Source: Spirosoma fluviale (GTDB lineage Bacteria > Bacteroidota > Bacteroidia > Cytophagales > Spirosomataceae). From it: a DNA stretch of 64,000 bases. The translations under genes were made by a program, and so were the position numbers. Shown here piece after piece: positions 1,366 to 19,703 of the stretch (the first letter of the stretch is position 1; the number at the start of each line of letters is the position of its first letter). Where the stretch lies: the NCBI RefSeq assembly GCF_900230225.1, contig NZ_OCNH01000010.1, positions 62,001 through 126,000 on the forward strand, read 5' to 3'. A model generated the notes under the pieces. It searched no databases and was not told where the DNA came from. It worked only from the letters and a program-made list of their open reading frames with translations.

Positions 1366-1410
1366 GGGAGTACCTTGTCAGGTGTTCGGCATAGTCTGTG
1401 ACTATGTCGT

Positions 1411-1478
1411 GGCGTTATCCGGTCTCTGACCGGTGTAAATGAATTGCTCAGTACACCGGTCAGAGACCGGATAACGCC
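1411..1478. repeat. 27-bp perfect inverted repeat in intergenic gap
   Basis: The arm 1411-1437 is perfectly complementary to 1452-1478 (27 bp, 14-base loop). It stands alone in the gap after the esterase gene and has no T-run immediately after either arm. A further 10-bp stem with a 3-base loop follows at 1480-1502. Function unknown; a transcript-end or RNA-stabilising structure is possible. Confidence 0.75.
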
Positions 1479-1504
1479 CGAGCGTAGTTATAAACTACGC
1501 TCAA

Positions 1505-1619
1505 CGAGTTTGTAGTACCGACCGTCGATGCCTCGAACCGTCCCCGTCGGGTAAGAAGCGATTAGATACACGTCCGACCGGGACGGTTCGACGCATCGAC
1601 GGTCGGTACTACAAACTCG
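1505..1619. repeat. REPIN-like inverted repeat, copy 1 (diverged)
   Basis: Arms 1505-1550 and 1574-1619 pair over 46 positions with two mismatches, around a 23-base loop. The inner part of each arm carries the motif CCGTCCC(G/C)GTCGG and the outer part ends in GTAGTACCGACCGTC. The same core, as an inverted pair, occurs at 16415-16486 and 19627-19703, so this is a dispersed family rather than a gene-specific terminator. This copy is longer and more diverged than the other two. The whole 1366-1790 gap (425 bases) holds this element, the 27-bp and 10-bp hairpins, and otherwise nothing I recognise. Confidence 0.75.
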
Positions 1620-1790
1620 AAGTCACTTTTCATTCAACATATTTTAGGGAAGTTTAAACTGGTCACCAGTACAAATCGCCGGTTTTGCGGTACAATGCGT
1701 GGTTTTTTGCCTGACAGCTACTTGAAAACTTACGGAAAAGCGGAGATTTACCTACCTGTACAGCCAATCGCCGGTTAAAGAACTCACGTT

Positions 1791-2357: not shown

Positions 2358-2386
2358 GTACCCGACAGCCAGAGGCTGTCGGGTAC
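2358..2386. terminator. bidirectional terminator hairpin
   Basis: The arms GTACCCGACAGCC and GGCTGTCGGGTAC pair perfectly (13 bp) around a 3-base loop, directly between two converging genes ending at 2357 and 2394. AATTTA follows on the + strand. Well placed to end transcription from both sides. Confidence 0.8.
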
Positions 2387-5737: not shown

Positions 5738-5788
5738 TAACGAGGAGCCGTAGAAGCAGACATTGCCTGCTTCTACGGCTCCTCGTTA
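5738..5788. terminator. 22-bp bidirectional terminator hairpin
   Basis: The arms 5738-5759 and 5767-5788 pair perfectly over 22 bp with a 7-base loop, midway between the converging VOC gene (stop at 5725) and PIN toxin gene (stop at 5811). Location and AT-rich flanks suggest a terminator serving both strands. Confidence 0.75.
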
Positions 5789-14497: not shown

Positions 14498-16393
14498 TCA
14501 CGGCCGGGCGGGACGCCCGGTGTTACCTTTCCAGACGTTGTTCTGCTCGTCGGCGTCCATGAAGATGCCGCCTTCCAGACGAACCGACGCAACCTTCTTT
14601 TTGACCGGAATCTTTACGATGGCAAGGCGCTGGTTCGCCTGCCAGATAGCCGGTGTTTGGTGAACTGTCTGTGACGTGCCATCGGTAAAGGTCACAATAA
14701 CATCCGTTGGGGCCACGTAGCCGCCAATGTTCTGAATCGTGACGCTACAAAGTGTGGGCGTCATGGCAACGTTCTGAATGGCGAGGTCAATGTAGTTGTT
14801 GCTGAAAAACCAGTTGCTCCAGAACCAGTTCAGGTCTTTGCCCGATGCGTTGTTAAAACTGTAGAACATATCCCAGGGCGTGGGGTGTTTGCCGTGCCAG
14901 CGAGCCATGAATTCGAGCAGGCTCTTTTTAAAATCGGCATCGCCCAGCAGCTCTTTCAGCGCCAGATAGCCCAGCGCGGCTTTCCCGTACTCGTTGTTGC
15001 CCATGGCTGCCCCGCTCAGCACGTTGGCAGGGGTAATGATCGGCAAATCCTGCTCCGCCGACGGGTCTTTTATCCAGCCTTTTACCCGGAATAGCTGGAA
15101 GTTTTGTCGGGCCTGATCGTTGCCCAAATCAGCCTGGCTGATCAGGTATTCGAAAGCCGTCACCCAGCCTTCGTCCATAAATCCGTAGCGCGTTTCGTTG
15201 ATGCCCATGTAGAACGGGAACCAGGTGTGGGCAATCTCGTGCTCGGCCACGAACCGCGAGAAGTTCAGGTCGTTCGTACTTCCGTCATTCACCATCATAG
15301 GGTATTCCATGTCCGCAAACCCTTGAACGATGGTCGTTTTGGAGTAGGGGTAAGGCACGCCCGGCGTGTTGTTGGAAAACCAGTCGAGCGCGTGCCGACC
15401 AAAACCTACCATCTCGTGAAAATCGGTTGCATTGTCCAGAAAAGCCGCCTGCACACTGGATCGGCGGTTTGTTTTTTTATCGACCACCACGCTCGATGCA
15501 TCCCAGACATACTGGTTGCTGATGCACAGTGCCATATCGGGTACATAGCTGGCTTTCCATTTCCATGAATTGACCGGTTGCTGGGTCGTTACATTTTTGG
15601 TGGCCAGATCGGCGAGGGTGGCTACGTGGATGATGGAGTCCGTTTGCAGGGATTCGCTCAGGCGTTTGGCGTAGGTGGGTTGCAGTACTTCGGCAGCATT
15701 CTGCAAATCGCCGGTAGCCCAGACGAGGTAATCTTTCGGTACATTGACCGTGAGGGTATAGTCATTGAAGTCGTTGTAAAACTCCTGTGCTTCAGTAAAC
15801 GTGGTACGGTCCCAGCCGTAGTAATCGTCCATGACGGCCACTCGTGGGTAGAAGTAAGCCAGGAAAAACGTCGTTGAATCCAGTACACCTTCGCGCCCGC
15901 TTTCCTTAGAAACATCGTAATGCCATTCGAAGGCCAGCTTTATCGAGTCATGGGGCATGAGGGGCTGCGTCAGCGCCACCTGCCGTTGGGTGGCGTTACC
16001 GGCATCGCGCCAGATTTTATCGTTTTTGCCTTCGGTATACTTGTCAATGTGAATCCCGGAGGTCATATACTCGGCCGAAGCGGGCGACTGACGTACCGCA
16101 CCGGGTTTGTGGCTATTCAGGATCAACTTGAAGACGAGCGATCTCAGCGTATCTGGACTGTTGTTGATGTACGTAATCTCTTCTGTCCCGCGAATGGTTC
16201 GGTTGGGGGGCGTGGCCGTAATGGTGATGTTGTACCGGGCGAAATTCTGCCAGTAGTTTTTGCCGGGTCGGCCATCCAGTGAGCGGGTTCCTTTCTGGTA
16301 CGCCTGCTTCACGTTGCGCGGCATGTATAAACCCTGAGCCGTTACGGTTCCGCCAAGAATGGCAAGGCAAAAAGCGAGAATGAGTGGTTTCAT
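14498..16393 (-). CDS. M1-family (aminopeptidase N-like) exported metallopeptidase
   Basis: A 631-residue protein starting at ATG 16393 (signal peptide MKPLILAFCLAILGGTVTA). The frame is open 30 codons further, but that extension (MPTVPVGRVVAKG) is translated from the REPIN-like repeat at 16415-16486 and should be ignored. The zinc site is HEIAH (385-389) plus the downstream Glu408 in FMDEGW; the substrate-binding motif in place of GAMEN reads GFADMEYPM. M1 enzymes remove N-terminal amino acids from peptides in a zinc-dependent manner. The last residues (NTGRPARP) are encoded by a GC-rich hairpin (14504-14520), so the C-terminus may be recently altered. Confidence 0.9.
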   Translation of the reverse strand: MKPLILAFCLAILGGTVTAQGLYMPRNVKQAYQKGTRSLDGRPGKNYWQNFARYNITITATPPNRTIRGTEEITYINNSPDTLRSLVFKLILNSHKPGAVRQSPASAEYMTSGIHIDKYTEGKNDKIWRDAGNATQRQVALTQPLMPHDSIKLAFEWHYDVSKESGREGVLDSTTFFLAYFYPRVAVMDDYYGWDRTTFTEAQEFYNDFNDYTLTVNVPKDYLVWATGDLQNAAEVLQPTYAKRLSESLQTDSIIHVATLADLATKNVTTQQPVNSWKWKASYVPDMALCISNQYVWDASSVVVDKKTNRRSSVQAAFLDNATDFHEMVGFGRHALDWFSNNTPGVPYPYSKTTIVQGFADMEYPMMVNDGSTNDLNFSRFVAEHEIAHTWFPFYMGINETRYGFMDEGWVTAFEYLISQADLGNDQARQNFQLFRVKGWIKDPSAEQDLPIITPANVLSGAAMGNNEYGKAALGYLALKELLGDADFKKSLLEFMARWHGKHPTPWDMFYSFNNASGKDLNWFWSNWFFSNNYIDLAIQNVAMTPTLCSVTIQNIGGYVAPTDVIVTFTDGTSQTVHQTPAIWQANQRLAIVKIPVKKKVASVRLEGGIFMDADEQNNVWKGNTGRPARP

Positions 16394-16414
16394 GGAAATA
16401 GGTTGGTAGTTAGT

Positions 16415-16486
16415 GTAGTGCCGACCGTCCCGGTCGGGCGGCTGGCCTTTAGCAACTACTCGCCCGACCGGGACGGTCGGCACTAC
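16415..16486. repeat. REPIN-like inverted repeat, copy 2
   Basis: Arms 16415-16440 and 16461-16486 are perfect complements (26 bp, extending one more pair at each outer end) around a 20-base loop. Each arm contains the core CCGACCGTCCCGGTCGGG, shared with 19627-19703 and with the diverged copy at 1505-1619. It sits in the gap between the M1 and M20 peptidase genes, both on the minus strand, so it is not at a convergent gene end. A dispersed repeat family mobilised by a transposase elsewhere in the genome is the leading explanation. Confidence 0.85.
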
Positions 16487-18041: not shown

Positions 18042-19622
18042 ATGAAGAAATACATAATTTCTCTTTCTCTTCTTTATATTGTTATGATTGCGTCCGTTTG
18101 CGGCCAGTCTTTCAATGCTAAAACCATTCCCGAAGCCACCGTCACCAGTTTGCACACTGCTATGCAGGCGGGTAAACTAACCGCCGTTCAACTGGTACAA
18201 CTGTATCTGGACCGGATCGAGGCCTACGATAAACAGGGGCCTTACCTGAACGCCATCATTATGGTCAATCCCAAAGCCCTGTCCGAAGCCCGGAGGCTCG
18301 ATTCACTCTACAAGGTAACCGGCAAACTGGTTGGGCCGCTGCATGGCATTCCGGTAATCGTGAAAGATAATTACGATACCTACGACATGCCCACCACCAA
18401 CGGCACATTGGCCATGAAGAAGTCGATCCCACCTGACGATGCCTTTGTTGTGCGAAAAATCCGGGAGGCCGGGGCCATTATCATTGCCAAGTCAAATCTG
18501 GCGGAGTTTGCCTATTCGGGGCAGTTTTCGGTAAGCTCTATTTTGCCGGGCTACTCCCGAAATCCCTATGACACCAAGCGAACAACGGCGGGGTCAAGTG
18601 GGGGGACGGCGGCTGCTGTTACCGCTAATTTCGGGGTTATTGGCCTCGGAACGGATACCGGAAGCTCCATTCGCGGCCCGGCGTCGCACCAGAGTCTGGT
18701 GGGTTTTCGGCCAACGCTGGGTCTCGTTAGCCGCGATGGCATTGCACCCCTGGCGATGACCAACGATACCGGCGGACCCATCTGCCGGACGGTGGAAGAT
18801 GCCGTTCGGGTACTCGATGTGATTGCTGGCTACGACAAAGCCGATACGGTAACGAAACGCAGCGAGGGGAAAATTCCACAAACGTATCGGCAGTTTCTGG
18901 ACAAAGACGGGCTCAAGGGAGCGAGGATCGGTGTTTTTCGCCAGATGGTCATGCCGAAGAATTCAGACCCGCAGGTGTACGCGCTCTTCAACAAAGCTCT
19001 CGATGAACTTCGGGCTGCAGGAGCCATTGTGATCGACTCCGTTCGGGTGCCCCAACTCGACACGATCAATAAGTCCTTCGACACCATTCCGCAGCTTCGG
19101 CGCGATTTCAATTTGTACCTGGCCAGTCTGGGACCCAATGCACCGCATAAAACGCTGGAATCCATTGTTAAATCACGCCAGTTTCATCCTTATCTGGAAA
19201 AAGGGTTGCTGGATGCCATAGCGGACACGCTGGCACCGGAAGCGCACAAAGGCTGGGGTAAGAACCTGGCACTGCGGGAGCGGCTTCGGCAATTGTTGCT
19301 GCGGGCGATGGATTCCACGCAGGTCGATGCGCTCGTATATCCGTCGTTCAGTTACCCGCCCCGGCTCATCGGCGATCTGAATACGCCTTCCGGAACGAAT
19401 AATAATGCCTTGTCGCCCCCAACGGGATTCCCGGCCTTCTCGGTGCCGATGGGCTTTACCTACGGCGTGTTGCCCGCCGGATTGCAGTTTTTCGGCAGGC
19501 CGTTCAGTGAACCAACACTGATAAAACTGGCGTATGCCTACGAACAGGCCACCCACCACCGCCGACCGCCGGAAAGTACACCCCCGCTGTCGAAGAAAAA
19601 GCACAAAGCAGTGGTGCAGTAG
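18042..19622 (+). CDS. amidase-signature-family enzyme, exported
   Basis: A 526-residue protein with an N-terminal signal peptide (about 1-22). The amidase signature is complete: the catalytic lysine in VIVKDNYDT (Lys108), the cis-serine pair in TTAGSSGGTA (Ser185/186) and the nucleophile in GTDTGSSIRGPA (Ser209). The Ser-cisSer-Lys triad hydrolyses amide bonds in peptides, fatty acid amides or aromatic amides; typical length is 450-550, so this is full length. Substrate unknown. It is divergent from the M20 peptidase gene, with 143 bases between them, and is followed by REPIN-like repeat copy 3. Context with several peptidases suggests peptide or amide scavenging. Confidence 0.88.
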   Translation: MKKYIISLSLLYIVMIASVCGQSFNAKTIPEATVTSLHTAMQAGKLTAVQLVQLYLDRIEAYDKQGPYLNAIIMVNPKALSEARRLDSLYKVTGKLVGPLHGIPVIVKDNYDTYDMPTTNGTLAMKKSIPPDDAFVVRKIREAGAIIIAKSNLAEFAYSGQFSVSSILPGYSRNPYDTKRTTAGSSGGTAAAVTANFGVIGLGTDTGSSIRGPASHQSLVGFRPTLGLVSRDGIAPLAMTNDTGGPICRTVEDAVRVLDVIAGYDKADTVTKRSEGKIPQTYRQFLDKDGLKGARIGVFRQMVMPKNSDPQVYALFNKALDELRAAGAIVIDSVRVPQLDTINKSFDTIPQLRRDFNLYLASLGPNAPHKTLESIVKSRQFHPYLEKGLLDAIADTLAPEAHKGWGKNLALRERLRQLLLRAMDSTQVDALVYPSFSYPPRLIGDLNTPSGTNNNALSPPTGFPAFSVPMGFTYGVLPAGLQFFGRPFSEPTLIKLAYAYEQATHHRRPPESTPPLSKKKHKAVVQ

Positions 19623-19626
19623 TAAC

Positions 19627-19703
19627 GTAATGCCGACCGTCCCGGTCGGGTGTGAATCTAATATTTTGTCTTCTTCACACCCGACCGGGACGGTCGGCAC
19701 TAC
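19627..19703. repeat. REPIN-like inverted repeat, copy 3
   Basis: Arms pair over 30 positions (19627-19656 with 19674-19703) with one mismatch. The core CCGACCGTCCCGGTCGGG is identical to that of copy 2. It fills the short gap between the amidase gene and the converging DUF892 gene, so here it could also act as a transcript end. The loop sequence differs completely from the other copies. Confidence 0.85.

Follow-up and report, generated by a model that had tools for sequence, protein, structure and literature searches.

GTAG-tagged REPINs in Spirosoma fluviale and a probable cognate RAYT gene flanked by the same repeat

The question raised by this locus is why one short sequence recurs as an inverted pair at three places in a 64,000-nt stretch of the Spirosoma fluviale genome (the window; contig NZ_OCNH01000010.1, positions 62,001 to 126,000). 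A first-pass annotation, made from the sequence alone, had described these as a REPIN-like family and had named RAYT-mobilised repeats as the precedent. The features concerned are as follows, in window positions except for the last.

1505..1619, no strand assigned: REPIN copy 1, with feet at 1512 and 1612, GTAGTACCG / CGGTACTAC, defined by core, arms and fold.
1613..1664, no strand assigned: right half of a larger element, X, around copy 1, terminating in AAGTTTAAACTGGTC.
16415..16486, arms at 16415-16438 (plus) and 16463-16486 (minus): REPIN copy 2, with the foot GTAGTG twice.
19627..19703, arms at 19627-19650 (plus, foot GTAATG) and 19680-19703 (minus, foot GTAGTG): REPIN copy 3.
G000:C8:287178-287819, minus strand, outside the window between gltA and recA: RAYT gene, 214 aa.

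The inverted core was exact on both strands in copies 2 and 3, and copy 1, which had been described as diverged, carries it with three mismatches in each arm. At up to three mismatches the window contains six core sites, arranged as three inverted pairs, compared to a mean of 0.04 and a maximum of 1 in 100 shuffles. A repeat finder reported inverted arms of 46 nt at 96% for copy 1, and of 27 nt at 100% and 37 nt at 89% for the other two. Folded as single-stranded DNA, copies 1, 2 and 3 gave -55.7, -40.9 and -37.5 kcal/mol (z = -13.3, -11.2 and -11.2, respectively), which in each case was matched by none of 200 shuffles. The arms of copy 1 are extended by an extra stem module, also carried by other copies, and 7 nt of palindromic flank lie beyond each foot (1505..1619). 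Copy 1 lies within the surviving half of X, itself palindromic, and its flanks are therefore palindromic too; by eye, the flank at 1613..1664 is that of other S. fluviale copies of X. Copies 1 and 2 are situated between genes of the same direction and copy 3 between convergent genes, so that two of the three are indeed away from convergent gene ends; among the crude open reading frames (ORFs), copy 2 coincides with the falsely assigned start of one. The peptide MPTVPVG, which had been flagged as spurious, opens the ORFs 14498-16483 and 19173-19700, in both cases from a GTG within the repeat. The loops had been called unrelated, and within the window they do differ, but genome-wide the borders of the spacers are alike and some spacers recur.

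The S. fluviale assembly searched comprises 7.8 Mb in 18 contigs. The core was found at 74 + 73 sites with up to three mismatches, compared to 11 + 4 for the reversed pattern, and a pattern including the tag, GTAGTNCCGACCGTCCCGGTCGG, gave 44 + 46 sites with up to two mismatches and 0 + 0 in the control. With 150 of 3869 candidates scored, a profile built from 20 pairs located at least 76 places (E ≤ 0.01), to which three were added from the core-match list, giving a lower bound of 79. Both ends were readable at 54 of the 79 places, where the element is 64-110 nt long with a mode of 69. The arm has the form T-GTAG-T-R-CCGACCG-TCC-CGGTCGG-G, ie a tag, two bases and a 7-bp stem with a 3-base loop. 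Of the 108 feet of the 54 elements, 81 carry the tag GTAG and 27 carry GTAA, with a preceding T in 94. Two inverted arms usually surround a spacer whose borders are often mutually complementary (GTGTGAA...TTCACAC). The variants are single arms, double-foot singles in which GTAG...CTAC flank one hairpin, and arms, often both of a pair, extended by a 16-nt module of the CCGTCGATGCGTCGAA type, as in copy 1, or by one of the TCGGCCCGGCGACCG type. In at least four pairs (C4:1418637, C4:1450315, C7:287223 and C4:749899) the loop of one arm is reversed. GTAG was present within the outer 25 nt in 22 of 108 flanks, where tetramers average 8.75, but it ranked only tenth among them and the enrichment was not used.

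The occurrence of the same tagged sequence at no fewer than 79 unrelated places excludes gene-specific terminators as the sole explanation, as had been argued from the three copies. Gene context was taken from the longest ORFs, which are crude, rather than from gene-finder predictions. On that basis 71 of the 79 copies are outside ORFs (38 tandem, 29 convergent and four divergent), whereas the adjacent gene pairs of these loci number 159 tandem, 57 convergent and 44 divergent. Six of the eight overlaps are at the extreme start of an ORF and may reflect false ORF starts; one is at an ORF end, and one (C8:137464) is deep inside an ORF of 2814 nt. This last copy (L147 2500-2580) is degenerate, and a full REPIN occupies the same place in genome G035.

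Ten matches were obtained when the S. fluviale genome was searched with Pfam Y1_Tnp. The gene listed above has family REPINs 4 nt and 39 nt from its two ends; its neighbours are, as we judge from their sequence, citrate synthase (gltA) and recA. There are thus dozens of mostly extragenic copies, and the paired repeat recurs on both sides of a Y1/RAYT gene, as the first-pass annotation had proposed to look for, and its REP/RAYT interpretation is supported: the family extends well past three copies, and neither the transposase nor the enrichment of the core is missing.

The protein scored 28.7 bits against Y1_Tnp (cut-off 23) and 76 bits, E = 2.7e-21, against NCBIfam REP_Tyr_transpos (NF047646), just below the cut-off of 80. 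Residues H117 and H119 (HUH) and Y184 are invariant across 45 aligned relatives, and a search of PDB sequences with a profile of these relatives had the E. coli TnpA-REP (4er8) as its top match (E = 4e-10). The structure prediction had a pLDDT of 88.9, an earlier model from nine sequences (pLDDT 52.4) being left unused, and its first Foldseek match was again 4er8 (E = 3.3e-8). VIA-align of the predicted fold gave Z = 15.6 for 4er8, at 2.7 A over 143 residues, and Z = 12.8 for the runner-up entry. Thg1-type tRNA-His guanylyltransferases followed the transposases at Z = 7.0-9.7, which is taken as a general fold shared with the predicted model. The gene is single-copy in S. fluviale, with one match at 100% and the next full-length relatives at 55% and 40%, each with a REP family of its own; an ortholog at 72% is present in S. 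arboris.

The best explanation, to which we assign a probability of roughly 85%, is that the window copies belong to a REPIN population of inverted GTAG-tagged REP hairpin pairs which is copied, or was until recently, by one cognate RAYT. Direct observations comprise the family with its size and tag, the gene, the REPINs beside it, the joint occurrence of gene and repeats within Spirosoma, and the inversion in place described below. The biochemistry of other RAYTs suggests how copying would proceed. The protein, a predicted HUH/Y1 single-strand endonuclease, would bind the single-stranded REP hairpin and, guided by GTAG, cut beside the tag, then move or copy the element.

The gene and the tagged sites were compared across 59 genomes, 36 of Spirosoma and 23 of the same family or order. 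This RAYT, at 72% identity or more, is present in five, which have 90 (S. fluviale, G000), 93 (G035), 50 (G024), 44 (G034) and 31 (G014) tagged sites. Among the 54 genomes without it, Spirosoma telluris (G016) has 46 sites and G026 has 15, the other 52 holding 0-5; the control pattern gave 0 sites in each of the 59. The carrier genomes are related, so the co-occurrence may stem from shared descent and is not an independent test. In G014 the RAYT match is in two pieces in different frames, which is read as a frameshift; the gene is intact in the other four species. Because G016 and G026 have sites without this RAYT, and G014 has sites and an apparently frameshifted gene, the sites outlive the gene. 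The four intact genomes, the frameshifted one, G016 with its orphan sites, G026 and the many near-empty genomes form a natural comparison set.

At 12 orthologous sites (S. fluviale compared to G035 or G026) the arms agree at 523 of 576 positions (91%), the spacers at 147 of 265 (56%) and the 40-nt flanks at 751 of 960 (78%), with genes at 85% identity; the low value for the spacers is partly due to inversion. Many sites are common to several species, and many are therefore old. Such persistence is what would be expected if the RAYT were no longer active on the family, the REPINs being vertically inherited relics that selection maintains as terminators or as hairpins at mRNA ends, and the surroundings of the gene a matter of history. 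This is somewhat unlikely, but it does account for sites shared at about 85% gene identity, for arms better kept than flanks, for the 46 sites retained by G016 without a RAYT, and for a placement in which 29 of 79 copies are convergent and only four divergent, against the background of gene pairs given above. It is less easily reconciled with an intact RAYT in four of five species and with the restriction of high copy number to genomes which have the gene or, by the scar in G016, formerly had it. Moreover, identity of tag, stem and loop throughout the family at unrelated sites requires some copying step at one time or another.

The places of the window copies were inspected in relatives. In G026 and G035 the place of copy 2 holds shorter double-foot REPs and the gap of copy 3 a different palindrome, so the place of a REPIN persists while its hairpin gets rebuilt. 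At C10:775899 and at the window copies a search for a cleanly empty site was unsuccessful, the relatives having another REP form, another palindrome, a remnant or other DNA; their regions had been picked for holding REPINs, and sites empty in relatives are under-sampled. No transposition event was seen in the orthologous-site comparison. At about 1500-1790 of the window, G026 and G035 have some 1.8 kb of extra DNA between the same two genes, where S. fluviale has the REPIN in half of X.

Element X has the ends GAACCTGTTTAAACTTTT, which gave 11 + 14 matches at up to two mismatches in the S. fluviale genome and none in the control. Examples are found at window 1613-1664, whose end is too diverged to be counted among those 25 matches, and at C4:1075131, C13:266211, C10:1096244 and C4:44921. 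Its centre is either a family REPIN or, in seven elements, a different palindrome, GTCATCCCGA...GGGATCTTC. About 12 of the 79 REPIN copies, copy 1 included, are in the middle of X, mostly with one common spacer. From these it might be supposed that the repeats are carried by X, and hence by another transposase, with the RAYT link incidental. We regard this as scarcely credible, since about 67 of the 79 copies are not in X on this reading, X also exists with the different palindrome, and the RAYT's own flanking REPINs are without X. Spread through X alone is ruled out for those copies, ie for most of the family.

Palindromic flanks are not confined to X. The flank arms of 16 of 54 elements are complementary (score 6 or more), compared to 2.6% of shuffled pairings. 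After X was dropped by a simple rule the figures were 9 of 46 and 1.3%, two of the nine (C17:124456 and C9:63512) being missed copies of X. Insertion into the loops of pre-existing hairpins was considered as a possible general rule. At C4:1450315, however, the left flank is shared with the sister species, in which the right flank is not its complement. Palindromic flanks can therefore arise after insertion, and at this site one flank apparently turned into the complement of its opposite after the lineages of S. fluviale and G035 had parted.

The orientation of the spacers was examined in 153 REPINs from nine Spirosoma genomes, among which two-sided flank matching gave 32 orthologous pairs. The spacers are recognisably related in 12, of which eight are inverted with respect to both flanks and four are direct; the remaining 20 are neither. 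The cut for relatedness, p < 0.02, was derived from 6000 unrelated pairs, 110 of which pass it, 53 as direct. A smaller run with 17 pairs gave four inverted, three direct and ten neither. The 32 pairs are not independent, as ten come from the RAYT locus and three set one G011 element against several G034 copies. The RAYT-locus pairs comprise eight among G014, G024 and G034 (two inverted) and two between G000 and G035 (one inverted and one direct). One inverted pair is nearly tied (G014/G034, recA side, 41 vs 38); the clearest inversion is that of G024 against G035 (L351:2483, L324:2502).

The RAYT gene itself has been found in both orientations. Of the 36 Spirosoma genomes, recA loci were read in 30, and in five of these the gene lies between gltA and recA, every time with REPINs on both sides. 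It is oriented as recA in G000 and G035 and opposite to it in G024, G034 and G014. All ten outer feet at the five loci are GTAGTR. The inner feet of the flanking REPINs are [GA]TAAAA in nine of ten, the exception being GTAGTA at the gltA-side inner foot of G000. An extra single inner arm is present in G034 and in G014, with feet ATAATA and GTAGTG, which makes the overall figure 9 of 12 inner arms. Among the 108 S. fluviale feet GTAAAA occurs once, at the RAYT locus. The same place in the RAYT-less G016 is occupied by a single REPIN having GTAAAA feet at both ends and a spacer identical to one in G014. Most simply, the RAYT would have been lost here from between its REPINs, leaving the orphan sites behind. 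The gltA-recA gap of G026 (L257), where the RAYT is likewise absent, is free of REPs and contains a perfect palindrome whose arms measure about 39 nt by eye. Another perfect palindrome stands in the same convergent gap of G017 (L275), again a species without the RAYT; the arms in the two are some 30-40 nt long, as if palindromes were perfected in Spirosoma.

Since every REPIN is a long inverted repeat, it is also remodelled where it stands: loops and interiors turn around, as does the RAYT gene, and flanks become palindromic. Such turning is most likely brought about by recombination between the arms or by template switching in replication, rather than by the transposase, because loops are flipped within stems of only 7 bp, perfect palindromes occur without a REP, and one flank at C4:1450315 has changed. 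Template switching linked to quasipalindromes is known in E. coli, according to the part of PMC7202029 available. That the RAYT itself made the inversions of interiors and of its own gene, by cutting and rejoining at the tags, is considered quite unlikely. The eight inverted against four direct among the 12 recognisable pairs, and the gene in both orientations between REPINs, would fit such activity, and TnpA-REP can reportedly cut REP strands and recombine them in vitro (PMC8266576, available sections). However, the flips of single loops in 7-bp stems and the REP-less palindromes of G026 and G017 require a process free of RAYT, and that process could invert as well.

By analogy with the Stenotrophomonas system, in which a change to the third or fourth tag base is reported to have abolished cleavage, cutting of the inner feet at the usual site is improbable; elsewhere it is the tag that directs where cleavage occurs (PMC8266576, in the sections available). 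It is tempting to see in this a code by which the tags guard the REPtron, the RAYT cutting the outer GTAG and not the inner [GA]TAAAA and so rarely excising its own gene, while its in-place flips of REPINs and gene would be at least as frequent as moves. The combination is decidedly doubtful, and it is weakened by an inner-foot rule which, once the two extra inner arms are counted, one of them with GTAGTG, holds in 9 of 12. Reworking in place by recombination or template switching, within a population copied by the RAYT now or until recently, is preferred.

REPINs with RAYTs are already well known, and the Spirosoma system is a new case in the Bacteroidota. As in Pseudomonas fluorescens (PMC3116915, PMC8049555), REP pairs around a spacer form a long hairpin and there is one RAYT gene, described for that species, in the portions available, as single-copy and vertically inherited. 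The sequence and the phylum differ, however, and those portions do not mention inversion in place. With the E. coli REPtron and TnpA-REP (4er8; PMC8266576, sections available) the system shares GTAG at the hairpin foot, the HUH/Y1 fold and a gene among REP pairs. Unlike in E. coli, the stem is a perfect 7 bp, without the bulge which E. coli REPs need, and the inner feet are [GA]TAAAA in most RAYT-proximal arms; the two proteins are 20% identical over the aligned residues.

The available text of PMC6006769 describes a TnpA-REP subclass, 2.7, which is similar in its length near 213, in NHVH, in long REPs with GT[AG]G and in having D and R at the positions of E. coli E100 and H101 (D169 and R170 in the Spirosoma RAYT, on our reading of the alignment). 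The subclass motifs are given there as [ND]HVH, WQ and YI[LR][NQ]NP, and NHVH fits, but the Spirosoma protein has WE and YILSNP. The hosts named are Cyanobacteria and a few other phyla, and the Spirosoma RAYT is not filed as a member. The tag, the hairpin and a nearby RAYT are also common to the GTAG REP superfamily, which the available part of PMC3733652 reports from Proteobacteria, Cyanobacteria, Chloroflexi and the PVC group; Bacteroidetes appear there for CGTC repeats only, which are said to be without a dedicated transposase. Such systems had been called poorly described in Bacteroidota. That holds for GTAG repeats as surveyed in that part, but TnpA-REP subclasses 2.4 and 2.6 are recorded in Bacteroidetes in the text seen of PMC6006769.

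Open-access titles and the starts of abstracts, among the matches listed, told of no REPINs in Spirosoma. The word 'inversion' has no occurrence in PMC8266576, PMC8049555, PMC3116915, PMC3733652 or PMC6006769, and no description of changed inner feet or of frequent in-place inversions was found in the literature searched. The present case adds a well-populated GTAG REPIN system, together with its gene, to the Bacteroidota, and it bears on the open question of how REPINs spread yet persist. From the inner feet and the inversions, outcomes of a cleavage assay and of resequencing can be predicted directly.

Several other repeats were noted in passing. Adjacent to copy 1, at window 1384-1505 (core pair 1413-1476), there is an element of a different REPIN-like family, CGTTATCCGGTCTCTGACCGG, with inverted pairs about 43 nt apart. 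This family has 10 + 11 sites in S. fluviale at up to three mismatches and none in the control; the same element is at the orthologous place in G026 and G035, and no RAYT was found for the family. At window 2358-2386 a third family is represented by a double-foot copy, GTAC-CCGACAGCCTCTGGCTGTCGG-GTAC. This family (GTACCCGACAGCATCTTGCTGTCGG; 13 sites in S. fluviale, present in 7 of the 59 genomes, control 0) flanks a second RAYT-like gene, G000:C8:283586-284212, at a distance of 3.6 kb from the one described above. P0003 (G000:C7:146397-147029; L039 1007-1146, 1197-1857) is a third RAYT-like gene, 40% identical to the first, with a GTACC-tagged pair of hairpins of its own upstream and one related hairpin downstream. 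In G026, at C15:68605-68742 (L065), a RAYT remnant of 46 residues (54% identity) lies beside a GTAC-tagged family pair, which by its sequence is a second apparent case of a lost RAYT with its REPs remaining.

A simple hairpin scan, run without a null model, covered 65 RAYT loci (L042-L062, L072-L112) from Bacteroidota, Ignavibacteria, Chloroflexi and others, some of them the same gene twice. Repeated hairpins were found within 450 nt of the RAYT in 36 of the 65, and on both sides in 26. The tags are often GTAG, and also GTAC, GTAA, GTCC/GTCT and GTAT, which is wider than the GT[AG]G searched in PMC6006769, as far as its available text goes. Finally, the window has a near-perfect inverted repeat at 5738-5788, with 25-nt arms at 96% and a 1-nt loop, which by eye is unrelated to the REPIN family.
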